Positions 5,090 to 52,108 of a DNA stretch of 64,000 bases are shown here, piece after piece (within the stretch, counting starts at the first letter, position 1; the number at the start of each line of letters is the position of its first letter). The notes below the pieces were generated by a model. It ran no database searches, was not told the origin of the DNA, and saw only the letters and a list, made by a program, of their open reading frames with translations. The position numbers and the translations under genes are program-made. Origin of the DNA: Haloarcula nitratireducens (GTDB lineage Archaea; Halobacteriota; Halobacteria; Halobacteriales; Haloarculaceae); NCBI RefSeq assembly GCF_019599505.1, contig NZ_RKLT01000017.1, positions 3,860 to 67,859 of the forward strand. Reading direction: 5' to 3'.

Positions 5090-6811
5090 TCAGTCCCGGT
5101 CGTCGACCGGACCGGAGTGGCCGGGCTCGCCACTCCCACCGGAGCGGTCGGTCTTGTCGGTTCTGGTGGTCGGCAACGCGTCGGCGAACTCGATCCGCCG
5201 GGGGCGCTTGTGCCTGCCGAGCGTCTCGGCGACGAACGACTGCAGTTCGGCCGAGAGGTCGGCGTCGCCCGTCGCGCCGTCCGTCGGGACGACGGTGGCG
5301 AGGACACGCTCACCCCGCTCCGGGTCGGGTTCGCCCCCGACGAGCGCCGCCGCGACGGCGGGGTGCGCTTCCAGTGCCGTCTCGACTTCGAGCGGGCTGA
5401 CGCGGTAGCCCGCGCTGAGAACGAGGTCGTCGGCTCGGCCGAGGTGGACGAGCGTTCCATCGTCGAGAAAGCGGCCCACGTCGCCGGTCCGCAGCAGCCC
5501 GTCGTCGAGGACCTCCGCGGTCGCCGCCGGGTCGTCGAGGTATCCCCGCATGACGACTGGGTCGGGAAGCGCGACGGCGATTTCGCCGATTTCGCCGGTC
5601 GGCACCGCCGCGCCCGACTCGTCGACGACGCGTACCTCGTGGCCGGGATAGGGCCGTCCGAGGCCGTCGTCGGTGCCGGGGTAGACGCGCTTGCACTCGC
5701 CGACCAGCGCGTTGGCCTCGGTCTGTCCGTAGGACTCGTTGACCGTCGCGCCGAGGCGTCCCGCGGCCCAGTCCGCGAGCGTCGGGGGTAGGTGCTCCCC
5801 GCCGCACATCACCGTGTCGAGCTCGGGAACGTCCGCCGGCGACGGGTCCGTCTCCCGACGTATCGCCCGCAGTGCCGTCGGCGGGAGGAAGGTGTGGGTC
5901 ACCGATTGCGCTCTCACGAGCGACAGCGCCGCTTCGGGGTCGAACCCGCTCCGTCTCACCGACGAGACGACGGTGCCGCCGAGGGCGAGCGTCGGGAACA
6001 CCACGTCGAACAGCGCGCCCGCCCACGCCCACTCCGAGGGCGTCCAGACGCGGGCCGCGCGGGCCTCGCTCGCCTCGAAGAGGCCGAACCAGCAGTGATA
6101 GCCCGGCAGCGACCCGAGCAGGTACTGATGCCCCTGCACCACACCCTTCGGGTCGCTCGACGTCCCCGACGTGTAGAGCACGAACGCGGGCTCGTCGGGC
6201 GCGGTCTCGGTCATCGATGGGTCGGCCGATTGCTCCCGACTCTCGACGACCGCGCCCAACCCGCCCAGCGGCCCGTCGTCGCCGTCTACGCGCACGGACA
6301 TCGTCGTCTCTGGTACCGCTTCCCGAACGCTCTCGGCCACCCCCAACCGTCGCTCGTCGACGACGAGCGCCGCCGCGTCGCTGTGATCGAGCAAGTGAGC
6401 GAACGCCTCGTCGCCGAGTAGCATGGACGCCGGGACGACGACGCCGCCGAGGCGGAGGACGGCCAACTGGCTTACGACGAGTTCCGGACACTGCGGGAGG
6501 CAGACGGCGACGCGGTCGCCCGCCTCGATTCCGGCACGACGAAATCGGTCCGCGAGTGCCGCCGACGCGGCCGCCAGGTCGCCGTAGGTGAGCGTGCGGG
6601 CCGGCGCTGAACTCTCGTCGCCGTCGTCCGTGCCGCGGCCGTCGCTCCCTCGCTCGGGAAGGTGTCGAAGCGCGACGGCCTCACGATCGCCCGACAGGAC
6701 GTGGTCCGCCGCGTTGTAGGTCGATGGAATCCGCCAGTCGAAGCCCTCGACCAGTTCTTCGTAGCTCTCCGGTTCGGTCGGCAACTCGTAGCCGGTCCAG
6801 GGGCCGCTCAT
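5090..6811 (-). CDS. AMP-forming acyl-CoA synthetase
   Basis: A 573-residue ANL-superfamily enzyme that activates a carboxylic acid as acyl-AMP and then acyl-CoA. The phosphate loop YTSGTSSDPKG is near residue 212, ESYGQTE (A5) mid-protein, RTGDVG (A7 Asp) late, and the C-terminal catalytic lysine in TRTDK close to the end. Length and motif order fit acetyl- or medium-chain acyl-CoA synthetases; the chain length of the acid is not evident. Its stop-side neighbour on the same strand is the GH88 gene: the ATG at 6811 overlaps that gene's stop by four bases, implying co-translation after it. A CoA-transferase lies just upstream, hinting at a CoA-ester module. Confidence 0.9.
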   Translation of the reverse strand: MSGPWTGYELPTEPESYEELVEGFDWRIPSTYNAADHVLSGDREAVALRHLPERGSDGRGTDDGDESSAPARTLTYGDLAAASAALADRFRRAGIEAGDRVAVCLPQCPELVVSQLAVLRLGGVVVPASMLLGDEAFAHLLDHSDAAALVVDERRLGVAESVREAVPETTMSVRVDGDDGPLGGLGAVVESREQSADPSMTETAPDEPAFVLYTSGTSSDPKGVVQGHQYLLGSLPGYHCWFGLFEASEARAARVWTPSEWAWAGALFDVVFPTLALGGTVVSSVRRSGFDPEAALSLVRAQSVTHTFLPPTALRAIRRETDPSPADVPELDTVMCGGEHLPPTLADWAAGRLGATVNESYGQTEANALVGECKRVYPGTDDGLGRPYPGHEVRVVDESGAAVPTGEIGEIAVALPDPVVMRGYLDDPAATAEVLDDGLLRTGDVGRFLDDGTLVHLGRADDLVLSAGYRVSPLEVETALEAHPAVAAALVGGEPDPERGERVLATVVPTDGATGDADLSAELQSFVAETLGRHKRPRRIEFADALPTTRTDKTDRSGGSGEPGHSGPVDDRD

Positions 6812-42179: not shown

Positions 42180-42995
42180 CTACGTCTCGGCGGCGTCGAT
42201 GACTTCGTAGTTGATGTTGTGCTGGTTCAGGCTATCCGCGTGAGCGGCCACCTGGTCGGCCGCAGCCAGCAAGAGGACGTCTACTCCCCTGGTGGCGGCC
42301 TCTCGCACCGCCGCGGCGCTTCCGAAGCGAATATCCACCTCGACCCCTGCCGCCTGTGCGGCGACGATGCCCTCGACGCCCGCTGTGGCGATCACCGCGT
42401 GCTCTCCGGCTAACTCCTCGATTCGCCGAGAATCGACGACCGAACTCCCCCCGTTTTGGACCATCGGGATCGAGACGACTGTCACCGCGCCGCGCTCGTA
42501 CTCGACGACCCCCGTGACGTCCGTGACTCCGAGATCCGTCTCGGCGGACGCGTCAGTCACCGCAACTGCGGTTGCACTTCCCGATCCCCCAGGAACCGCT
42601 CGGAGTACCCCATCCCGCATCGTCAGGGAGACCGTATCCCCTTCGGCGATGTCCGTCGCGGCGACGACGGTCTCTACCTCCACCTGCCCGATCACGTCCT
42701 CGGAGACGTGTTCGACGAAACGCCGGAGCTCGTCGGTCTGTGAGATCAGCCAGTCGACGCCCTCTTTGGTGACCTCGTATCGACCCCGACCGTGTTTGGT
42801 GACGTACCCCTGCGCGCTGAGGTCTTGGAGATAATCGCTCACCGCCTGTGAGGTGACGCCGATGGCGTCCGCGATCTCCCGCTGACTCACGGCGGGCTGT
42901 CGTTCGGCTATCTCTACCAGGATCTGGTATCGGGTGGCGTTACGCTTACTCCGGAGTACCCCGAACTCCTCGGACTCGTCCGTTCCCTCGGTCAT
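42180..42995 (-). CDS. Winged-helix transcriptional regulator divergent from the cobalamin genes
   Basis: A 271-residue protein. Residues ~15-85 form a MarR-like winged helix (RNATRYQILVEIAERQPAVS, IADAIGVTSQAVSDYLQDL, GYVTKHGRGRYEVT). The remaining ~180 residues are a domain typical of haloarchaeal regulators of this type. It includes VVDSRRIEELAGEHAVIATA and an alanine-rich stretch ending in NYEVIDA, and resembles a small-molecule-binding fold, but I cannot name a ligand. It shares a 146-base divergent promoter region with cbiT. Control of the cobalamin cluster by cobalt or corrinoid is plausible from position only. Haloarchaeal genomes often hold this gene type. Confidence 0.78.
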   Translation of the reverse strand: MTEGTDESEEFGVLRSKRNATRYQILVEIAERQPAVSQREIADAIGVTSQAVSDYLQDLSAQGYVTKHGRGRYEVTKEGVDWLISQTDELRRFVEHVSEDVIGQVEVETVVAATDIAEGDTVSLTMRDGVLRAVPGGSGSATAVAVTDASAETDLGVTDVTGVVEYERGAVTVVSIPMVQNGGSSVVDSRRIEELAGEHAVIATAGVEGIVAAQAAGVEVDIRFGSAAAVREAATRGVDVLLLAAADQVAAHADSLNQHNINYEVIDAAET

Positions 42996-43100
42996 ACCCT
43001 CGTATTCACACCCGAACTCAAGTAACTTTTTCTTAGCGCGCTTCAGGTTGGCTACAGTGCCTATTCCCCCGATCTAGAGAAGGCTTAGTTGTCATAGTGC

Positions 43101-43119
43101 AAACAAAATTGTTTTACGC
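43101..43119 (+). promoter_or_regulatory. cbiT promoter with overlapping inverted repeat
   Basis: TTGTTTTACG (TATA-like, centred 27 bases before the ATG at 43142) overlaps the inverted repeat AAACAA-AA-TTGTTT at 43101-43114. A factor bound there would block or help TBP/TFB loading for the whole cbi operon. Confidence 0.6.
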
Positions 43120-43141
43120 CCCAAGCGAGTTGTTCGGGTCG

Positions 43142-43708
43142 ATGGCAGACGTTTCGCTCCCTCACGACGCGAAGGCCGGCCCGACGAAGTCGGAAGTCAG
43201 GGCGGTCCTCCTCGATAAACTCGCTCTCGGACCGACCGACCACTTCGCCGAAGTCGGCTCCTGTACGGGTGCCGTCACCGTCGAGGCGGCGCGCCGAGCC
43301 GGCCGAGTCACCGCACTCGAACGCAAGGCCGAGAGACTGCGGGTCACCGAACGGAACCTCGAAGCGAACGACACCGATGCGGACGTGACCCTCCGCGAGG
43401 CGGCAGCGCCGGACGGGTTGCCCGACGACGCCGACGCCCTGTTTCTCGGCGGCAGCCGGAATTACGAGGACGTTCTGGACCACGCGGTCGAGACTGGTGT
43501 GGACCGGCTCGTGATGAACGTCTCCCGCCTCGAAGTCGCCGGCGCGGCGGCGGACGCGTTCCGCGAGCGGGAGCTGCTCGACGAGATCGTCCAGTTCCAG
43601 GTGAGCCACGGCTACGAACTCGCCGGAGCGACGAGCTTCGACTCGCAGAACCCGGTGTACATGCTGGTCGGGTCCACGACGCGCGCGGCGGACGGGGGAA
43701 GTCGATGA
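43142..43708 (+). CDS. cbiT: Cobalt-precorrin-6B C15-methyltransferase (decarboxylating), CbiT
   Basis: A 188-residue Rossmann-type SAM methyltransferase. KAGPTKSEVRAVLLDKL is the CbiT N-terminal signature (substrate entry), and AEVGSCTGAVTVEAAR is the SAM loop (family G-C-G-T-G, here S-C-T-G). ALERKAERLRVTERNLEAN completes it. It methylates C15 and decarboxylates the C12 acetate of the corrin ring. I chose the ATG at 43142 because of promoter spacing and the family start; 43097 would add residues overlapping the promoter. Its stop overlaps the cbiL ATG (ATGA). First gene of the long cbi operon. Confidence 0.9.
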   Translation: MADVSLPHDAKAGPTKSEVRAVLLDKLALGPTDHFAEVGSCTGAVTVEAARRAGRVTALERKAERLRVTERNLEANDTDADVTLREAAAPDGLPDDADALFLGGSRNYEDVLDHAVETGVDRLVMNVSRLEVAGAAADAFRERELLDEIVQFQVSHGYELAGATSFDSQNPVYMLVGSTTRAADGGSR

Positions 43709-44541
43709 CGCTCTACGGCGTCGGCCTCGGCCCGGGCCGGTCGGATCTGGTGACGGTTCGCGGACGGCGAGTCCTCGACGACGCGGACGTGGTCTACTCT
43801 CCCGGCCGCCTCTCGCGGTCGGTCGCCACCGAGCACGCCCCCGAGGCCCGCATCGGCGACCTCGACTTCCCGATGACGCGCGACGCCGAGAAGCTTCGGT
43901 CGGCGTGGAAGACGGCGGCGGCGGAGATAGCGCCGACCGCCCGCGACGGGACCGCGGCGTTCGTCACGCTCGGCGATCCGAACGTCTACTCCACGTTCGG
44001 CCACCTCCGGCGGACGATGGCGGCGTTCCATCCCGACGTCGAACTCGAGGTCGTCCCCGGCGTCAGCGCCGTGACGGCCTTCGCGACCGCGCTGGGCGTC
44101 GAGATCACCGCCGGGTCGAGCATCGCTCTGCGGGAGGCCGACGGCGGCGTCTCGCCGACCGGCCCCGACCGGATGGTGCTGTTCAAGGTGACCGACGCCC
44201 CGGCGACCAACGAGGGACTGGTCGAGGCCGGCTACGACGTCGTCTACGGCCGCCGCCTGTTCATGGAACAGGGCGAGACGCTCGTCACCGACGACCCGAC
44301 CGAGATCGACGAGCGAGACTACTACACGCTGGCCTACGCGGAGCGGCCCGAAGCCCGCGTCGAACAGGCCACCGACGCTTTCCTCGAATCGGCCGACGAG
44401 AACGGCGTCGTCTCCGACGGGGGCGAGACGGACGGCGCGAGACGGCCCTCGCTGGAACGGCAACTCAACGGCGGCGAATCGAATATCGCTCGGCGGGAAC
44501 GATCTGAGAGCGAACTCTGCGGCGACGAGGTGCGGCGATGA
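43705..44541 (+). CDS. cbiL: Cobalt-factor II C20-methyltransferase, CbiL
   Basis: A 278-residue tetrapyrrole methylase. The N-terminal LYGVGLGPGRSDLVTVRG and the mid-protein AAFVTLGDPNVYSTFGH are typical, and VVPGVSAVTAFATALGVEIT is the substrate/SAM loop. It adds a methyl at C20 of cobalt-factor II. The last ~45 residues after the methylase domain are a charged, low-complexity tail. Start and stop both overlap neighbours by four bases (ATGA), so translation is coupled to cbiT and cbiF. Confidence 0.9.
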   Translation: MTLYGVGLGPGRSDLVTVRGRRVLDDADVVYSPGRLSRSVATEHAPEARIGDLDFPMTRDAEKLRSAWKTAAAEIAPTARDGTAAFVTLGDPNVYSTFGHLRRTMAAFHPDVELEVVPGVSAVTAFATALGVEITAGSSIALREADGGVSPTGPDRMVLFKVTDAPATNEGLVEAGYDVVYGRRLFMEQGETLVTDDPTEIDERDYYTLAYAERPEARVEQATDAFLESADENGVVSDGGETDGARRPSLERQLNGGESNIARRERSESELCGDEVRR

Positions 44542-45422
44542 ACGGCGACGCCGAGACGGACCCGCAGGCGGCTATCGACGCCGCGGCGAGCGACCGGGAC
44601 GAACGGGTGTACGAACACGGCGCCGGCGACGAACAGGAGGGTATCCCCTTTGTCGGCGCCGGCCCGGGCGACCCGCGTCTGCTGACCGTCGCCGGCCGGG
44701 AACTACTCTCTGACGCCGACCTGGTCGTCCACGCCGGGTCGCTGGTCAACAGCGAACTGCTGGCGGAGTACTGCGCGGACGCCGAGACGGTCTCCTCCAT
44801 CGGCAAGGACCTCGAAGAGCTGATTCCGCTGATGCGCGACGCCCACGAGCGCGGCGAGACGGTCGTCCGACTACACAGCGGCGACCCGGCCATCTACGGC
44901 GCGGCCTTAGAACAGATGGACGCGCTGGAACACGAGGGCGTCCCGACGTACATCGTTCCCGGCGTCACCTCGGCGTTCGCCGCCAGCGCCACCCTCAGAA
45001 CGCAACTGACGCTGAACGAGGTCGCCAACCACGTCGCGTTCACCCGTCCCCAGGGGGAGACGCTGGACGAAGACGAGGACCACATCTCGGAGTTCGTCGG
45101 GATGGGCGACGTGACGACCTGCATCTATCTGGGGACCCACGCCGTGAGCGAGACGATGGACCGACTGCTGGACGACGGCCACGACCCGGAGACGCCCGTG
45201 GCCGCGGTGTATCACGCCTCGTGGCCCGACGAGGACGTCATCGAGGGGACGATCGAGACCATCGGGGAGAAACTGGAAGCGGCCGGCTATCGCGCCTCTG
45301 CGATGGTCGTCGTCGGCGACGCGGTCGGCGGCGAGGAGTACGAGCGCTCGTTCCTCTACGGCGAGTGGGCCAGCGGCGGTGGCGGCGGAGACGGCGGCGA
45401 CTCACAGGAGGCTGACGACTGA
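44538..45422 (+). CDS. cbiF: Cobalt-precorrin-4 C11-methyltransferase, CbiF
   Basis: A 294-residue tetrapyrrole methylase. A ~30-residue acidic extension precedes IPFVGAGPGDPRLLTVAG. VHAGSLVNSELL is diagnostic for the C11 enzyme, RLHSGDPAIYGAALEQMD and VPGVTSAFAASATL follow, and TRPQGETL is the late loop. It methylates C11. The tail ends with a Gly-rich stretch. Its stop shares one base with the cbiG ATG (TGATG). Confidence 0.92.
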   Translation: MNGDAETDPQAAIDAAASDRDERVYEHGAGDEQEGIPFVGAGPGDPRLLTVAGRELLSDADLVVHAGSLVNSELLAEYCADAETVSSIGKDLEELIPLMRDAHERGETVVRLHSGDPAIYGAALEQMDALEHEGVPTYIVPGVTSAFAASATLRTQLTLNEVANHVAFTRPQGETLDEDEDHISEFVGMGDVTTCIYLGTHAVSETMDRLLDDGHDPETPVAAVYHASWPDEDVIEGTIETIGEKLEAAGYRASAMVVVGDAVGGEEYERSFLYGEWASGGGGGDGGDSQEADD

Positions 45423-46393
45423 TGAGCACGGACAACGACACAGACTCCGGTTCGAACAGTTGCAAAGCGCCCGACTCGGACGGCGAGGTGGCCGAAGACA
45501 TCGCCATCGTCGCCTTCGAGCGGAAGATGGACACCGCCGAGGAGATCGTCGACGGTATCGGCGACCGCTACGAGTCGGTCGAGATCCTGGCGTACCACGG
45601 CGACGTCTTCGAGGAGCACTGGGGGGAGTACGACTGCTTCGTCGGGTTGATGGCGAGCGGCATCGCCATGCGCAAGACCGCCCATCTGCTCGACGACAAG
45701 TGGGACGACCCCGCCATCTGCGTCGTCGACGAGGAACTGACGTGGGCGATTCCCATCACCGGCGGCCACCACGGCGCGAACCAGGTCGCCGACGACCTGG
45801 CGAGCATGGGCGCGGTCCCGGCGATGACCACCGCCAGCGAGGCGGCGGGCAAGCAGGGCGTCGAGAAGCAGGCGAAGGCGCTCGACGCCCACGTCGTCAA
45901 CGGCGACTCGACGGTCGCCACGAACCTCGCCGTGCTGGACGACGAACTCGGCCCCGTCGAGCGCCTCGACGGGCCGAAGGCGGTGCTCGTCGACGACGAC
46001 GTGAGCGTCCTCGAGCGCAACGGCGACGACGGCGTCGTCCTCGGTTGCGGGAGCGTCGCGGGCGCGGACGTCGAGCAGTTCCACGAGGCGTGGGATAGAG
46101 CGCTCGACGCGGCCGACTGCGACCGCGAGGACGTCGAGTTCGTCGCTACGGGCACCCGGAAGGCCGACGAAGAGGGCATGCTCGCCGCCGCCGAGGAGTG
46201 GGGACTCGGCGTCGTCGCCTTCGAGAAGGGGACGCTGGCGGAGTTCGAAGGTCCCTCGCCCTCCCGCTCGAAGGAGCTCATCGGCTGGCCGGGCATCGCG
46301 GAGTCGTCGGCCATCGCCGGCGGCCGGGAGCACGAGCTGCTGGCCGAGAAGGCGCGCTACGACGAGGCCGTGACGGTGGCGATCGGCCGATGA
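45422..46393 (+). CDS. cbiG: Cobalt-precorrin-5A hydrolase, CbiG
   Basis: A 323-residue CbiG protein, which opens the delta-lactone and releases acetaldehyde from cobalt-precorrin-5A. The N-terminal domain has CFVGLMASGIAMRKTAHLL. The central segment VDEELTWAIPITGGHHGANQ is the family hallmark. The C-terminal CbiG/CobE-like part is GCGSVAGADVEQF through VATGTRKADEEGM. It begins right at the end of cbiF and overlaps cbiH1 by four bases. Confidence 0.92.
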   Translation: MSTDNDTDSGSNSCKAPDSDGEVAEDIAIVAFERKMDTAEEIVDGIGDRYESVEILAYHGDVFEEHWGEYDCFVGLMASGIAMRKTAHLLDDKWDDPAICVVDEELTWAIPITGGHHGANQVADDLASMGAVPAMTTASEAAGKQGVEKQAKALDAHVVNGDSTVATNLAVLDDELGPVERLDGPKAVLVDDDVSVLERNGDDGVVLGCGSVAGADVEQFHEAWDRALDAADCDREDVEFVATGTRKADEEGMLAAAEEWGLGVVAFEKGTLAEFEGPSPSRSKELIGWPGIAESSAIAGGREHELLAEKARYDEAVTVAIGR

Positions 46394-47322
46394 GTCGAAC
46401 GAGCGACGACGGCGAAACGGCCTCGACCGCGGACGCGGCGAGCGAGCGAGCCGACTACGGGACGCTGTACGTCGTCGGCATCGGCCCCGGACTCCCCCAC
46501 GACATGACCCAGCGGGCGGGCGAGGTCATCCGACGCGCCGACACCGTCATCGCGTCGAACCTGTACCAGGAGTTCCTGCGGAAAGACGGGACGCTCCCGC
46601 CGGAATCGGCCGCCGTCGAGGGCGTCGCCGACGACGGCGAGATCGCCGACGAGGAGGGGGCCGTTCTGGAGCGACCCGACGGGACGCGACAGACGCTCGT
46701 CCGCTCCTCGATGGGCAAGCAGGTCGAACTCGCCCGCGAGGCGTTCGAACGGGTTCGCGCCGGGGAAGACGTGGCGCACGTCTCCGGCGGCGATCCGAAC
46801 GTCTACGGGAAGTCCGACCTGCTGTTCACGATGGCCGACGCCGAGGGCGCCGCCGACGTCCCCATCGAGATCGTCCCCGGCGTGACCGCCGCGCTCTCGA
46901 GCGCGGCGAACCTCGGCGCGCCGCTGTCGAACGACTTCTGTACGATCTCGCTGTCCGACAAGTGGCGCGGCTGGGACGAGATCGAGGAGAAGCTCCGGGC
47001 GGCGGCCGTCAGCGGCTTCGTCGTCGTGCTGTACAACTGCTGGCGCGACTACGAGCGGGCGGTCGCGGTGTTGCGCGAGGAGCGAGCCGACGACGCGCCC
47101 GCCGCCATCGTCAACGACGCCGGCCGCGGCGCGGCCGGCCGGAACTTAGACGACGAGACGGAGACGATCACGACGCTCGGCGAACTTCCCGAGCACAGCG
47201 AGGAGGTCGGCGGCATGGGCTCGTCCATCGTCGTCGGCACCCACGAGACCGACGTCTGGGAGAACGACTACCGCGAGTTTCTCGTCACCCCGCGCGGCGG
47301 GCGTGACGTGGAGGATTTCTGA
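46390..47322 (+). CDS. cbiH: Cobalt-precorrin-3B C17-methyltransferase, CbiH copy 1
   Basis: A 310-residue tetrapyrrole methylase with a ~25-residue acidic leader, then LYVVGIGPGLPHDMTQRAGE, VAHVSGGDPNVYGKSDLLF, IVPGVTAALSSAANLGAPLS and VVLYNCWRDYERA. It methylates C17 with ring contraction. The second CbiH follows after three bases; having two CbiH paralogues in tandem is usual in haloarchaea, but the division of labour is not established to my knowledge. Confidence 0.9.
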   Translation: MSRTSDDGETASTADAASERADYGTLYVVGIGPGLPHDMTQRAGEVIRRADTVIASNLYQEFLRKDGTLPPESAAVEGVADDGEIADEEGAVLERPDGTRQTLVRSSMGKQVELAREAFERVRAGEDVAHVSGGDPNVYGKSDLLFTMADAEGAADVPIEIVPGVTAALSSAANLGAPLSNDFCTISLSDKWRGWDEIEEKLRAAAVSGFVVVLYNCWRDYERAVAVLREERADDAPAAIVNDAGRGAAGRNLDDETETITTLGELPEHSEEVGGMGSSIVVGTHETDVWENDYREFLVTPRGGRDVEDF

Positions 47323-47325
47323 ACT

Positions 47326-48291
47326 ATGAGCACGGACGACACTACCGACGCGAGCACAGAGAGCGAATCGAGATGCGGCGGCGCGACCGCCGACAGCGAG
47401 TCGAAGTGCGGCGGTGCGACGGCGGAGACGAGCGCGAACGCCGAGTCGAAGTGCGGCGCGACCTCGGATGGGTCCGACGAGGAGGAAGTCGGTGCCACCG
47501 TCGAGGACTTCGACGCGGACCCCGGCCGACTCGTCGCGGTCGGTCTCGGTCCCGGTCAGCCCGAGGGGATGACCGCGAAGGCCCGCTCGGCGCTCGCCGA
47601 CGCCGAGCACATCGTCGGCTACACCACCTACGTCGAACTGCTTCCCGACGAGATCGTCGAGGGAGCGGAGGACATATACGACACGCCGATGTGCGGCGAA
47701 GTCTCGCGCACCGAGGAGGCCATCGACCGGGCGCTCGCGGGCAACAGCGTCGCCATCATCGGCAGCGGCGACCCGAACGTCTACGCGCTGGCCGGGCTCG
47801 CTCTCGAAATCGTCGAGTCGAAGGGCGCGACCGCGTCGATGCTCGACTTCGACGTGGTCCCGGGCGTCCCGGCGGCCCAGTCGTGTGCGGCCCGCGTCGG
47901 CGCGCCGCTGGTCAACGATACCGTCTCCATCTCGCTGTCGGACCACCTCACGGACATGCCGACCATCGAGTCACGGCTCCACGCCGCCGCCAAGGAGGGG
48001 TTCACAATCAGCGTCTACAACCCCTGGAGCCGCAAGCGACGCGACAACTACGCGAAGTGCTGCGAGATCCTGCTGGAACACCGCGACCCCGAGACGCCCG
48101 TCGGCGTCGTCCACGCCGCCGGTCGCGAGGACGAGCGCATCGAGATAGTGGAGCTCGGCGACTTACCGGACCTCGGCGAGACCGACCTCGTGGACATGAC
48201 GACGACGCTGCTGGTCGGCAACGAGGACACGTACGTCTGGGACGACCGCATGGTGACCCCGCGCGGATACGAGACGAAGTACGACTACTGA
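47326..48291 (+). CDS. cbiH: Cobalt-precorrin-3B C17-methyltransferase, CbiH copy 2, with a Cys-repeat N-terminus
   Basis: A 321-residue methylase. The catalytic part begins near residue 65 (RLVAVGLGPGQPEGMTAKA) with VAIIGSGDPNVYALAG, VVPGVPAAQSCAARVGAPL and ISVYNPWSRKRRDNYAKC. Before it lies a ~60-residue acidic extension. The extension holds three imperfect repeats around single cysteines: SRCGGAT, SKCGGAT and SKCGAT (residues ~17, ~28, ~44). The extension is not part of the methylase fold. It could bind a metal (cobalt or an iron-sulfur cluster) or dock another subunit. The ferredoxin gene follows two bases after the stop. Confidence 0.9.
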   Translation: MSTDDTTDASTESESRCGGATADSESKCGGATAETSANAESKCGATSDGSDEEEVGATVEDFDADPGRLVAVGLGPGQPEGMTAKARSALADAEHIVGYTTYVELLPDEIVEGAEDIYDTPMCGEVSRTEEAIDRALAGNSVAIIGSGDPNVYALAGLALEIVESKGATASMLDFDVVPGVPAAQSCAARVGAPLVNDTVSISLSDHLTDMPTIESRLHAAAKEGFTISVYNPWSRKRRDNYAKCCEILLEHRDPETPVGVVHAAGREDERIEIVELGDLPDLGETDLVDMTTTLLVGNEDTYVWDDRMVTPRGYETKYDY

Positions 48292-48293
48292 CG

Positions 48294-48608
48294 ATGTATC
48301 GAGTCACTATCGACCGCGAGGCCTGTGACGGCGTCTTCGCCTGTCTCGTCCGCGACGACCGGTTCGTGGAGGATAGCGCGGAGCGAAGCTCCGCGGACCA
48401 TTCGAGCGGGCAGCGCCCGCGAGAAGACGGCGAGGGGCTGGCGGCCCTCGAAGTGGACGACGAGCTAACCCTCGCGGCGACGTTCGAGGACGACCGGCGA
48501 GCAGACGCCGAGAGTGCGGCCGCGGCCTGCCCGCTCGACGCCATCAGCGTCGAGGACGCGACGGACGAACACACAGCCACCGCCGGCGTCGGGGAGGGCG
48601 AGCCGTGA
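48294..48608 (+). CDS. Small ferredoxin of the cobalamin operon
   Basis: A 104-residue ferredoxin-like protein. The cluster motif is split: CDGVFAC (CX5C) near residue 10, and AAACPLDAI near residue 75. Three cysteines in the CX5C...CP pattern suggest a [3Fe-4S] cluster. Between them is a ~30-residue Ser/Glu/Gly insert coded by two DNA hairpins. It probably passes electrons to a reductive step of corrin-ring synthesis (for instance cobalt reduction or a ring reductase). Its TGA overlaps the GTG start of the next gene. Confidence 0.82.
   Translation: MYRVTIDREACDGVFACLVRDDRFVEDSAERSSADHSSGQRPREDGEGLAALEVDDELTLAATFEDDRRADAESAAAACPLDAISVEDATDEHTATAGVGEGEP
48377..48420. repeat. Two GC hairpins inside the ferredoxin gene
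   Basis: CGCGGAGC-GAA-GCTCCGCG at 48377-48395 (perfect 8-base arms) and GCGGGC-AGC-GCCCGC at 48406-48420 (6-base arms). They encode the hydrophilic linker between the two cysteine blocks. They look like an in-frame palindromic insertion of the kind seen in some haloarchaeal genes. Confidence 0.7.
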
Positions 48609-49264
48609 GCGCCGAGATCGGTGCGCCGAGCGACATGCTGGCGGCCCACCCGGAGACGGCGTACTTCTGGGGGCGCGTCGCCGGCGACGGCGACTGCGAG
48701 GACGGCTGTGTCACGGTGCGGACGACCGACGAGGCGGCGGCCGACAGACTCGTGGCCATCGCGGGAGCCGAGCGGACCGACCGCCGGACGGTCGAACGGA
48801 ACTACGCACACGACACGTCGGTAACGCGTCGCGAGGACGAGTACACCGTCCAGGTCCTCGGTCCCCTCGCCGAACGCGCAAGCGGGGCGCTCGGCCTCCC
48901 GTTCGACGGGGAATCGGGCGGGTACCGGCTCGATCCGCTGACCGAGTACGACCGGGAGTTGCTCCGGGGGCTCGTCGAGGCCTGCGGAACGGTGTGCTTC
49001 AAAGCGGACGACGACGCCGTCGGCCTCTCGTTCGTCCACGAGGACAGGACCCTCCTCTCGACGGTGCAGTCGCTGCTCGACGGGGTTCCCGTGACCGCGC
49101 CGTACGGCGAGCCGTCCGCGGCGTCGTCGGGTCACTGGTTCGGCGTCGACGACGCGGCGGTCCCGGCCGTGGGCGACTGGCTGTACGAGGGCAGCGAAGC
49201 TACTGGGCTGTTCGCGCCCAGTCGGCGGCGAAAGCTCGAACAGAGCATCGAGCGGGTCCGATGA
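48605..49264 (+). CDS. LAGLIDADG-fold protein embedded in the cobalamin operon
   Basis: A 219-residue protein with two LAGLIDADG-like halves. The first helix reads YFWGRVAGDGDCEDG (residues ~18-32), followed by the usual VTVRTTDEAAADRLVAIAGA strand-helix. The second reads DRELLRGLVEACGTVCF (residues ~118-134) and ends with WLYEGSEATGL and SRRRKLEQ, as in homing endonucleases. The catalytic acid is present in half one (GDGD) but the second has Cys in place of Asp (EACG), so DNA cutting is doubtful. It starts with GTG overlapping the ferredoxin stop, and its stop overlaps the cbiX start, so it is translationally coupled. This suggests a domesticated role, for example DNA binding or regulation. 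I know no described function. Confidence 0.72.
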   Translation: MSAEIGAPSDMLAAHPETAYFWGRVAGDGDCEDGCVTVRTTDEAAADRLVAIAGAERTDRRTVERNYAHDTSVTRREDEYTVQVLGPLAERASGALGLPFDGESGGYRLDPLTEYDRELLRGLVEACGTVCFKADDDAVGLSFVHEDRTLLSTVQSLLDGVPVTAPYGEPSAASSGHWFGVDDAAVPAVGDWLYEGSEATGLFAPSRRRKLEQSIERVR

Positions 49265-50481
49265 GCGAAGCCACCGCCGCTCCCGCGCTCGACGACGAGG
49301 CGATCCTGCTGGCCGGCCACGGGTCGCGCCGCGAGAAGTCCAACGAACAGGTCCGCGAGTTGGCCGCGGAACTCGAAGGCAGGCTGAGAATCCCGGTCGA
49401 CGCGGCGTTCCTCGAACTCGCGGAGCCCGCTATCGACGACGCTATCGCCGGACTCGCGGCGACCGTCTCGCAGGTGACGGTCGTCCACCTCTCGCTGTTC
49501 GCCGCGAGCCACGTCAAGAACGACGTCCCGCTGGCGGTCACGCAGGCCCGCGAGTCTCACCCCGACCTGACTATCAATAACGGCGCGCATCTGGGGCTCC
49601 ATCCGGCGCTCCTGGATCTGCTCGACGACCGCGCGACCGCCGTCGAAGCGGAACTGGGCGTCGACCGCGAGGCGGACGAGGTCTCCGTCGTCGTCTGTGC
49701 GCGAGGGTCGTCGGACCCGGACGCCAACGCCGACGTCCACAAACTCGCCCGCCTCCTCTACGAGGGCCGGGCGTTCGACCGCTGCGAGGCGTCGTTTATC
49801 GGCGTCACCGAGCCGCTGCTCTCCGAAACGCTCCACGACGTCGCCAAGACGCGTCCCGACGCCGTCGTCGTCCTGCCGTACATGCTCGGCGACGGCGTGC
49901 TGACCGGGCGAATCAAAGAGGGCGCGCGAGAGTTCGACGCGGAGTACCCCTACGTCGACGCCGCGCCGGGCGAACCGCTCGGTACCGACCCGCGACTGCT
50001 GGACGTGCTCGGCGACCGCTGGCAGGAGGCCCGGACGGGCAGCGTCGAGATGTCCTGTGACACCTGTAAGTACAAGGTCGAACTCGACGGCTACGAGGAC
50101 GATAAGGGCGGGGCGCGGGCGATGCTCCGGGCGCTGACCCATCAGGCCGAACACGCGGACCGCGAGGACGTCGCCGACGACCCGCACGTCCACGACGCCC
50201 CCGAGAAGCACGTCGCGGTCTGTACGAACCAGACCTGCGCCGCCGACGGCGCGCCCGCGGTCCTCGAACGGCTGCGGCAGGCCGCCCGCGGCAGCGACCG
50301 GTGCGACGCCCGAATCACGCGGTCGTCCTGTCTGGGCCGCTGCGGCGAGGGACCGATGGCCGCCGTCTACCCCGACGGCGTCTGGTACGGCGACCTCGAC
50401 GAGGAGGACGCCGAGACCGTCGTCGCGTCCCATCTCGACCGCGACCGAATCGCGAGCGAACTGGTCGACCAAACGCTGTAA
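49261..50481 (+). CDS. cbiX: Sirohydrochlorin cobaltochelatase CbiX fused to a [2Fe-2S] ferredoxin domain
   Basis: A 406-residue protein. Residues ~1-250 hold the CbiX chelatase fold: LLAGHGSRREKSNEQ and LFAASHVKNDVP carry the metal-binding histidines, and LPYMLGDGVLTGRI is typical. A CDTCKYK motif follows near residue 263. The C-terminal ~110 residues are a thioredoxin-like [2Fe-2S] ferredoxin (CTNQTCAADG ... SSCLGRCGEGP). It inserts cobalt early, into sirohydrochlorin. The cluster may sense or supply electrons; its need in catalysis is unclear. Overlaps the LAGLIDADG gene by four bases and precedes DUF3209 by 24 bases. Confidence 0.92.
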   Translation: MSEATAAPALDDEAILLAGHGSRREKSNEQVRELAAELEGRLRIPVDAAFLELAEPAIDDAIAGLAATVSQVTVVHLSLFAASHVKNDVPLAVTQARESHPDLTINNGAHLGLHPALLDLLDDRATAVEAELGVDREADEVSVVVCARGSSDPDANADVHKLARLLYEGRAFDRCEASFIGVTEPLLSETLHDVAKTRPDAVVVLPYMLGDGVLTGRIKEGAREFDAEYPYVDAAPGEPLGTDPRLLDVLGDRWQEARTGSVEMSCDTCKYKVELDGYEDDKGGARAMLRALTHQAEHADREDVADDPHVHDAPEKHVAVCTNQTCAADGAPAVLERLRQAARGSDRCDARITRSSCLGRCGEGPMAAVYPDGVWYGDLDEEDAETVVASHLDRDRIASELVDQTL

Positions 50482-50505: not shown

Positions 50506-50877
50506 ATGAGCTGTTACGAAATCGAGGCCCTCCGACTGGGCCTCATGAACGTCCTCGGTACCGAAGACGAACACGCGCGCCGGCACGCGGAACGAGAGCT
50601 GGACGGTCACATGACCGGCCCGATAGAAGCGCTGGCGAACGCGGAGACGCTCGCGGCCGTCGAGCGCCACCTCGACGCCGCGCTCGTGGACCTGGAGGAG
50701 GAGATCGCGCGGGCGGACGCGGACACCGACGAGTACGACTACATGCGCGGGCGACTCGTCGCCGTTCGGGACGCCGAGCGAGCGGTGAGTCGAATCACGG
50801 CGCAGGGCGAGGACGTCCTCTCGGGTCTCGGCGAGGCCCACGACGTGCTCCACGAGGCGTTCCCGGTCGATGAGTAG
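50506..50877 (+). CDS. DUF3209 family protein
   Basis: A 123-residue, all-helical, acidic protein starting MSCYEIEALRLGLMNVLG, which is the signature of the DUF3209 family found in haloarchaeal cobalamin clusters. No enzymatic motif is visible; the single N-terminal cysteine with nearby histidines could be a metal contact. It lies between cbiX and the beta-propeller gene, overlapping the latter by eight bases. A role in cobalt delivery or complex assembly is only guessed from position. Confidence 0.85.
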   Translation: MSCYEIEALRLGLMNVLGTEDEHARRHAERELDGHMTGPIEALANAETLAAVERHLDAALVDLEEEIARADADTDEYDYMRGRLVAVRDAERAVSRITAQGEDVLSGLGEAHDVLHEAFPVDE

Positions 50878-52108
50878 CCGGGTCCCGACCGCATCGCTCG
50901 GCGATATCCCGCCGGCCCGCTCCCGGCAACGGGGCCGCCGGTCGGCGGTCGCGCTCGCCGGGGACCTCGCGGTCGTCGGGACGGCAGACGGTGACCTGCG
51001 CGGGTTCGCCGTCCGAGACGAAGGGGAGCCGATCCCGAAGTGGCACCACGAGACCGTCGGCGAACCGAGCGTGGTGTCGGCCGCGCCGTTCGACGGCGGC
51101 GTCGTCGTCGGCGAGCGGAGCCCCCGCGGCGCGATACGCTGTCACGAGTCCGACGGGGCGGTCCGCTGGCGCTACGACGCGCGGACCGATATCGGCGGGC
51201 CGCAGCGCGACACCCGTTTTCTCCTACCGTTCGTCGCCGACGTCGTCATCGACGGGAAACGGTGTTACGCCGCCGCCAGACGGTACGAGCGACGACCCGA
51301 GGGCGGCGAGACGGAGCGCCGCTTCGAGAGCCTCGTCTACGCGTTCGCGCCGAACGGCACCGTCGAGTGGACCTACCGAGCCGACGCCTCGCCGATCTCG
51401 CTGTCGGTCCGCGACGACCGGCTCGCCGTCGCGTACAACCGCTGTCCCGGCGATCACCAGCGCGGGCTGGTCGTCCTCGATACCGACGACGGGACGCCGG
51501 CCTGGACGTGGGACCCCGGAGCGGATGGCCAACGCCGCGTCGGTGACGTGGCGTTGCTCGGTGACGGCGCGCTTCTGGCCAGCCACGGCGACTACTGCGG
51601 CTATCGACTCGGCGACGGCGGCGCGCGACGGTGGCGACTCCCGCTGGCGACGCCGCGGGCCGTCGACGGGGAGACGGTGTACGCGTATCCGAACCACGTC
51701 CGCGCGACCGAGTCCGGTGCGGTGTTCGTCACCGGCAACACCTACCCCGAAGGCGGTCGGGAGACCGAGGCGCGCCATCCCGCCGAACACACCGCCGTCG
51801 GCGTCTCGCCGGACGGCGGCCGCCGCTGGTCGTCGTCCGTCGGCGGCTTCGCCGGCGGCCTCGGGACCGACGGCTCGCTGGTGGCCGTGCCGGGCGCACA
51901 GCACTTCCGCGACCGCGACGCCGATCGGCACGGGTTGCGGGTGTTCGACGTCGCGGACGGCCGCGTCGGCACCTTCGATACGGACGGGATCGTGACCGCG
52001 GCGGCGGTCGAGGGCGAGACGGTCGTCGCCGTCGAGGAACCGGTCGTCTACCACGACGAGGGACGCGAGCGCGGAGCCTACCGGCTCCATCGCCGCTCGC
52101 TGTCGTAA
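50870..52108 (+). CDS. PQQ-like beta-propeller repeat protein of the cobalamin operon
   Basis: A 412-residue repeat protein of the PQQ/BamB-like propeller type: VALAGDLAVVGTADGDLRGF, CHESDGAVRWRYDAR, LVVLDTDDGTPAWTWDPGAD and VGVSPDGGRRWSSSVGG are successive blades. No signal peptide or membrane segment, so it should be cytoplasmic, unlike most such proteins. Its start overlaps the DUF3209 stop, tying it to cobalamin synthesis. It may be a scaffold holding the pathway enzymes; no catalytic residues are recognisable. It is the last gene before the cbtB promoter. Confidence 0.8.
   Translation: MSSRVPTASLGDIPPARSRQRGRRSAVALAGDLAVVGTADGDLRGFAVRDEGEPIPKWHHETVGEPSVVSAAPFDGGVVVGERSPRGAIRCHESDGAVRWRYDARTDIGGPQRDTRFLLPFVADVVIDGKRCYAAARRYERRPEGGETERRFESLVYAFAPNGTVEWTYRADASPISLSVRDDRLAVAYNRCPGDHQRGLVVLDTDDGTPAWTWDPGADGQRRVGDVALLGDGALLASHGDYCGYRLGDGGARRWRLPLATPRAVDGETVYAYPNHVRATESGAVFVTGNTYPEGGRETEARHPAEHTAVGVSPDGGRRWSSSVGGFAGGLGTDGSLVAVPGAQHFRDRDADRHGLRVFDVADGRVGTFDTDGIVTAAAVEGETVVAVEEPVVYHDEGRERGAYRLHRRSLS

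Follow-up and report, generated by a model that had tools for sequence, protein, structure and literature searches.

What would a protein with the fold of a homing endonuclease do inside a vitamin B12 operon? The question is raised by a 64,000-nucleotide stretch of Haloarcula nitratireducens contig NZ_RKLT01000017.1 (hereafter the window), in which an open reading frame on the forward strand at 48605..49264, starting with GTG, ending with TGA and encoding 219 amino acids, lies within a cobalamin cluster. An earlier reading, made from the sequence only (the sequence-only reading), had taken it for a domesticated LAGLIDADG-fold protein that might be a DNA-binding regulator of the operon or a new cobalt/corrin-handling protein. 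We call the gene LAG; on the basis of PF26411 and of the predicted fold, it encodes a two-repeat LAGLIDADG-fold protein of a haloarchaeal cobalamin-cluster family. The nuclease acid pair is gone from LAG, and purifying selection acts on the gene, which in the haloarchaeal cobalt-early B12 cluster is passed on as a stable member with a three-Cys ferredoxin gene on one side and cbiX on the other. It is almost certainly a domesticated, nuclease-dead LAGLIDADG protein. As to its present job, we favor the explanation that this domesticated protein helps the cobaltochelatase CbiX in cobalt supply, which, taken as a whole, we regard as plausible but somewhat short of probable.

The AlphaFold2 model of LAG is built of two alpha-beta-beta-alpha-beta-beta-alpha repeats. 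The sequence-only reading had named structure prediction as a possible refutation of the fold; the alpha-beta-beta-alpha pairs were predicted. A Foldseek search gave 644 matches at E≤10, and among the matches listed (the best 50 of 644) all were LAGLIDADG proteins. By sequence, the window protein alone matched LAGLIDADG_3 (PF14528) with an E of 0.19, below the cut-off. Because this match is weak, the protein by itself would not prove the kinship, but the family does: PF14528 was matched at E≤0.1 by 50 of the 75 members of our alignment A2, the window protein not included, with a best E of 9.6e-7. A2 was composed of 54 of 80 genomic loci (described below), 20 of 120 database proteins and the window protein, thinned of near-duplicates; an alignment A1 held 35 of the 120 listed homologues and the window protein. 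Moreover, the LAG profile aligned collinearly, across both motifs, with a LAGLIDADG endonuclease within an RNA polymerase intein (hhalign probability 87.6, E 3.5e-6). The database search listed 120 of 597 homologues, so that distant relatives may be unseen. All 120, the window protein included, carry a precomputed PF26411 domain and four carry a precomputed PF14528 domain, while PF26411 was not among the window LAG matches when hmmscan was run on a local copy of Pfam. A sequence search of solved structures gave seven matches at E≤10, none of them a LAGLIDADG protein (best E 0.059, FtsZ), because the relationship is too distant for a single-sequence search; it became clear in the search by fold. 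Window LAG matched none of the NCBIfam models at E≤1.

The residues that the family conserves are not those of a nuclease. The two motif stretches pointed out by the sequence-only reading, YFWGRVAGDGD and LLRGLVEACG, were located at residues 20-30 and 119-128. In the model and in A2, the first motif helix with D28-G29 spans residues 16-29 (48650..48691, forward strand), and the second motif helix with the next strand spans residues 110-131 (48932..48997, forward strand), with E125-x-C127-G-T-x-C131. At position 28, where the first acid is expected, 42 of the 75 A2 rows have D, 24 have S, four N, three G and two A. The second catalytic-acid position, 127, is Cys in 74 rows and Ala in one, and is acidic in none; the sequence-only reading had pointed out the Cys in the window protein. 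An acidic residue thus closes the first motif helix in 42/75 members and the second in 0/75, where an endonuclease would have one in each. Of the GDGD and EACG residues, for which the sequence-only reading had proposed a survey of conservation, GDGD is not a conserved motif; E125, C127 and G128 belong to a conserved second-half element, E125-x-C127-G128-[TV]129-x-C131. R65, H69, D70, R75, R108, R121, E125, C131, R207 and K210 are invariant (75/75), and H145 is kept in 72 rows. H69, D70 and R75 lie in the hairpin-tip motif YAHDTSVTR (residues 67-75, 48803..48829, forward strand; model and A2). These residue counts indicate that the residues under selection are not those of a nuclease. As a separate observation, the proteins P0031, P0057 and P0073 carry in-frame Ser/Gly-rich inserts near LAG residues 135-142, reminiscent of a small mobile repeat.

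The genomic position of LAG was then compared across species. In a scan of one genome per species, the best 80 of 101 relatives were kept as loci, and the order ferredoxin-LAG-cbiX was found in 80/80. In the window, the ferredoxin gene (48294..48608, forward strand) shares the four bases GTGA at 48605..48608 with LAG, and LAG shares the four bases ATGA at 49261..49264 with cbiX (49261..50481, forward strand), confirming the two overlaps described earlier. In the other loci, the start codon was taken as the one closest to the start predicted by comparison with the window gene; an overlap of exactly 4 bp is then seen for ferredoxin-LAG in 66/80 loci and for LAG-cbiX in 44/80. Five further LAG loci were read, three of which (L099, L101 and L102) have the same order, the other two being those of G018 and G024, described below. 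Among 242 genomes of the class, 123 have LAG and 127 have cbiH2, and it is these 127 that also have cbiX; 123/127 cluster genomes and 0/115 genomes without the cluster contain LAG. A wider draw of 292 genomes showed LAG in 22 of 23 further cbiX genomes. In a phylum-wide search, 40/392 genomes matched, all of them already matched in the class search, and so none of the newly drawn genomes matched; the distribution outside Halobacteria is thereby sampled. The ratio of nonsynonymous to synonymous substitution rates of LAG was 0.06-0.21 in eight pairs. These results agree with the earlier view of LAG as a fixed operon member, and the absence from related clusters that the sequence-only reading had named as a refutation did not occur. 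A Haloarcula rara plasmid record carries two copies of the LAG/cobalamin cluster (L002 and L003).

That LAG might be a homing endonuclease that is still active, or was mobile until recently, and merely happens to lie in the operon is suggested by its fold and its weak sequence likeness to intein endonucleases. However, the acid pair is lost, the gene evolves under purifying selection, it occupies the same slot in 80/80 loci and its presence is tied to the pathway. No intein or intron is evident at LAG, the flanking ferredoxin and CbiX genes matching their homologues in the same order in 80/80 loci, as the sequence-only reading had noted for the window. LAG thus differs from the archaeal LAGLIDADG homing endonucleases (I-Tsp061I, I-DmoI and intein endonucleases such as PI-PfuI), whose acid pair it does not have, and it neither resides in an intron or intein nor is mobile. 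Residue counts and synteny rule this candidate out, and we consider it barely credible.

The few cluster genomes that have no LAG are informative about its role. Four of the 127 (genomes G005, G011, G131 and G055) and one of the wider draw (G270) belong here, and all five have a CbiX with a His-rich tail, defined as at least 8 His in 30 residues. That all LAG-less cluster genomes found carry a His-tailed CbiX is a new observation here. In G055, a second, His-tailed CbiX stands exactly in the LAG slot, between the ferredoxin and the long CbiX, and overlaps the ferredoxin gene by 4 bp. The G055 cluster keeps cbiT, L, F, G, H1 and H2, the ferredoxin, the long cbiX and DUF3209, as well as PQQ, a second ferredoxin-like gene, chlID and cobN; cbtA was not detected in it. 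The clusters of the other four genomes read cbiT-L-F-G-H1-H2-cbiX-chlID-cobN, and their CbiX has the His-rich tail and no fused 2Fe-2S domain. G131 is Salinarchaeum sp. IM2453 (identical protein record), and, compared with the Halodesulfurarchaeum formicicum CbiX, those of G005 and G011 show 98% (over 297 residues) and 96% identity. The window CbiX is a sirohydrochlorin cobaltochelatase (PF01903) with a fused C-terminal 2Fe-2S thioredoxin-like domain (PF01257) and has no His-rich tail; it retains a MxCxxC motif.

If a His-rich tail can stand in for LAG, LAG probably does the job proposed for the tail, namely cobalt supply or holding at CbiX. According to PMC7689651, Bacillus megaterium CbiXL has a C-terminal extension that contains a 4Fe-4S centre and a long His-rich region and for which a role in metal storage and delivery is proposed. 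LAG would then assist CbiX at the step in which cobalt enters sirohydrochlorin; itself non-catalytic, it would supply or hold Co(II), possibly together with the three-Cys ferredoxin, and in a few lineages the His-rich CbiX tail would take over. A second hint for a cobalt role comes from the Halorutilales-type genome G024, whose LAG has a near relative in a named Halorutilales archaeon, retains E125, C127 and C131 and has lost D28. There LAG lies on a contig apart from cbiX, in a string of cation-efflux transporter, LAG, rhodanese and cation-efflux transporter. A single-sequence fold of this protein (pLDDT 53.9) was not used. Inteins are found in two open reading frames of G024 (in L096 10362-12443 and L097 5986-8595). 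One encodes a subunit of RNA polymerase and has LAGLIDADG domains by Pfam; the other is dCTP-deaminase-like, with such domains by reading of the sequence alone. The second intein-like frame (L096 10362-12443) gave no match in local hmmsearch.

These parts of the favored explanation do not stand equally firm. That LAG acts at the CbiX step we consider evenly balanced, whereas a role in cobalt supply specifically is tentative. The site can be guessed: it may be the central groove near the pseudo-dyad, where Cys127 and Cys131 would replace the nuclease metal site, and the partner touched by the conserved arginines and by the hairpin tip with His69 and Asp70 may be CbiX, the ferredoxin or the polycarboxylate tetrapyrrole. 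In the most explicit form, the former DNA/Mg groove, with Cys127 and Cys131 near the lost acids, would now hold cobalt or a cobalt-tetrapyrrole, feed CbiX and be interchangeable with the His-rich tail; this is conceivable but rather doubtful.

Several observations weigh against a cobalt-supplying partner of CbiX. Fisher's test of LAG against the His-tail gives p 2e-7 but ignores kinship; it took 79 LAG loci as tail-readable, and in three of these (L028, L043 and L053) CbiX is cut or frame-broken and its tail unreadable, which leaves the picture unchanged. On a cbiH2 tree, two LAG changes and three tail changes were counted, and the sign test gave p 0.5; with just two independent pairs, both agreeing, the association cannot reach significance on the tree. 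The tree was a quick one with long branches; L003 was dropped, being on the same plasmid as L002, and G024 (L098) was set LAG-positive by hand, its LAG being on another contig and its CbiX taken from a third (L116). On this tree the losses are two independent events, four of the five genomes falling in one clade with long branches whose join is unsure. In that clade (G005, G011, G131 and G270) the ferredoxin and DUF3209 are also missing beside cbiX, so the absence of LAG cannot be separated from theirs; G270 alone has weak ferredoxin and DUF3209 matches, elsewhere in the genome. Moreover, locus L027 has LAG plus a His-tailed CbiX that lacks the fused domain, the sole such case among the 80 LAG loci. 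In G018 (L100), LAG-cbiX is present and no ferredoxin was found between cbiH2 and LAG, and in G185 (L102, about 6088-6637) LAG matches lie in two overlapping frames, which may reflect a broken gene or a sequence error. Ala replaces C127 in L072 and H145 in three rows, two Cys are an incomplete metal site, and the neighborhood with cation-efflux (CDF) transporters is known from one metagenome-assembled genome. No report of LAG metal binding, interaction or phenotype was found in the literature searched. Excerpts of PMC7689651 state that deletion of the B. megaterium CbiXL extension leaves cobalt insertion unaffected, from which it follows that a tail-like helper need not be essential. Since the association is strong by Fisher's test and not after tree correction, we place the weight on the slot replacement in G055 and not on the p-value.

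The same natural losses bear on the possibility that LAG is a missing enzyme of the pathway, performing the CbiD step (EC 2.1.1.195) or the CbiJ step (EC 1.3.1.106) itself or as a subunit, or forming with the ferredoxin a new precorrin-6A reductase. In PMC8305020, four unassigned Haloferax cluster genes, HVO_B0052, B0053, B0055 and B0056, are named as obvious candidates for the CbiD/CbiJ gaps. HVO_B0055 appears to be the LAG gene and HVO_B0056 the ferredoxin, because of their position between cbiX1 (B0054) and cbiH2 (B0057). Among our genomes, CbiD is found in 0/242 and CbiJ above cut-off in 0/242, with one sub-threshold CbiJ match (G195), and the ferredoxin gene is coupled to LAG. On the other hand, G055 keeps the pathway genes with an extra CbiX in place of LAG, and the four-genome clade has the cbiT-L-F-G-H1-H2-X set without LAG. 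G005, G011, G131 and G055 also have no CbiD and, above cut-off, no CbiJ, and G270 has no CbiD; thus LAG is not a general filler of these gaps. The CbiD and CbiJ models (PF01888 and PF02571) matched neither window LAG nor any of the 75 members, and no S-adenosylmethionine-, nicotinamide adenine dinucleotide- or flavin-binding Pfam family was found for window LAG at E≤1. The slot swap in G055 and the His-tails of LAG-less genomes count against LAG serving the CbiD or CbiJ step and in favor of its working alongside CbiX, and as a gap filler, disfavored by G055 and the clade, LAG is decidedly unlikely.

LAG could also bind no metal itself and be an electron-transfer or assembly partner, docking the ferredoxin on CbiX or on its 2Fe-2S domain so that, under air, cobalt or the Fe-S centre of the chelatase stays in its proper redox state. 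The 4-base overlap of ferredoxin and LAG in 66/80 loci fits this, and all 123 LAG genomes among the 242 have a long CbiX, with a match reaching at least residue 403 of 406, whereas the four drawn genomes with a short CbiX only have neither LAG nor a ferredoxin gene beside cbiX. However, in L027 a short His-tailed CbiX occurs alongside both LAG and the ferredoxin, G018 has LAG and a long CbiX with no adjoining ferredoxin, G055 keeps ferredoxin and long CbiX with no LAG, and C127 and C131 are conserved past what a passive dock seems to need. We therefore hold such a partner to be improbable.

A DNA-binding regulator, the first of the two roles offered by the sequence-only reading, is less favored than a cobalt or corrin role, the latter being the one to which the His-tailed CbiX swap points. 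Here the LAGLIDADG saddle would bind the cobalamin promoter in the manner of WhiA, perhaps with the ferredoxin as redox partner. WhiA works with the 4Fe-4S protein WhiB. No helix-turn-helix family was found for window LAG at E≤1 (Pfam), and beyond the second repeat the AlphaFold2 model has just short helices (197-200 and 205-218). LAG is unlike WhiA (DUF199) in this, WhiA having a C-terminal helix-turn-helix that, according to PMC3781837, carries out site-specific DNA binding, while its LAGLIDADG part alone cannot footprint DNA and adds affinity. No A2 member matches the WhiA LAGLIDADG model at E≤0.1, PF14527 not being among the nine families matched by the 75 members; WhiA is bacterial, whereas LAG, across the genomes searched, goes with haloarchaeal B12 clusters. 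The net charge of LAG, -0.08 per residue, resembles that of enzymes and makes it about as acidic as those of the pathway. LAG also stands mid-operon, whereas a MarR-type/DUF7839 regulator gene (42180..42995, reverse strand; annotation and domains) stands divergently at the operon head beside cbiT and is likely the cluster's own transcription factor. A His-tailed CbiX as replacement would not be expected from the loss of a regulator. Regulation by LAG is therefore unlikely. A MarR-family gene is annotated at the same place in Halorussus aquaticus.

LAG sits in the haloarchaeal cobalt-early cobalamin cluster, which in the window reads cbiT-L-F-G-H1-H2-ferredoxin-LAG-cbiX-DUF3209-PQQ, followed by the cobalt transporter CbtA, chlID and cobN. 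The upstream part, cbiT, cbiL, cbiF, cbiG, cbiH1 and cbiH2, occupies 43097..48291 on the forward strand (by gene order). DUF3209 (PF11483) follows cbiX at 50506..50877 on the same strand, and a gene for a PQQ-like beta-propeller protein follows at 50870-52108, as it does in most of the 80 clusters. The cbi, chlID and cobN names were assigned through the gene order in the Halorussus aquaticus annotation, those of cbi also through excerpts of PMC8305020; the annotated order there is similar, and its LAG gene is named 'cobalamin biosynthesis protein'. The ferredoxin (Fer4_15 by Pfam) is of the three-Cys type, C-x5-C...CP; because of its three ligands it is probably [3Fe-4S]-type, judging by sequence. 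In 84/84 loci with a match (90 searched), the homologues show the CP motif and a C-x5-C whose middle residue is Ile/Val, with no CxxCxxC. Within the ferredoxin gene, a perfect 17-bp hairpin, GCGGAGCGAAGCTCCGC, lies at 48378-48394; the low-complexity stretch around it is absent from the L027 homologue, and the window holds one exact copy and one with two mismatches.

Among known systems, the HVO_B0055-type cobalamin cluster proteins (PF26411, NCBI 'cobalamin biosynthesis protein') are of the same family and position as LAG. Natronomonas NP_1110A is a LAG sequence match, and its locus tag places it close to cbiX1 NP1108A (PMC3403918). The His-rich/Fe-S region of B. megaterium CbiXL and CobW resemble LAG in their putative job, since cobalt storage or delivery for a cobaltochelatase is proposed or shown for them (excerpts of PMC7689651). 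Neither the tail nor CobW shows any sequence relation to LAG that we could see, and no P-loop GTPase (COG0523/CobW) Pfam match was found for window LAG at E≤1. CobW is a GTPase serving the late chelatase. In the literature searched, no link was found of LAGLIDADG with cobalamin biosynthesis or of this family with the chelatase; co-mentions of LAGLIDADG and cobalamin were, by title, not on haloarchaea, PF26411 was not mentioned, and HVO_B0055 was named just as unassigned. That the family is conserved and a candidate for the pathway gaps is already in print (PMC8305020), and neither the LAGLIDADG relationship nor the chelatase link was found in the literature searched.

To our knowledge, LAGLIDADG proteins of known job cut or bind nucleic acid (e.g., WhiA and maturases). 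With a family that has settled in a vitamin pathway, the range of fates open to the selfish LAGLIDADG fold would grow. The published question of how the four unassigned genes relate to the CbiD/CbiJ gaps, and which of them fill these, is sharpened by the natural losses, which argue that LAG does not and point LAG to cobalt insertion. If the favored explanation is true, it would mean that the LAGLIDADG fold serves a purpose other than handling nucleic acids, and a second solution for supplying cobalt to a type II chelatase.
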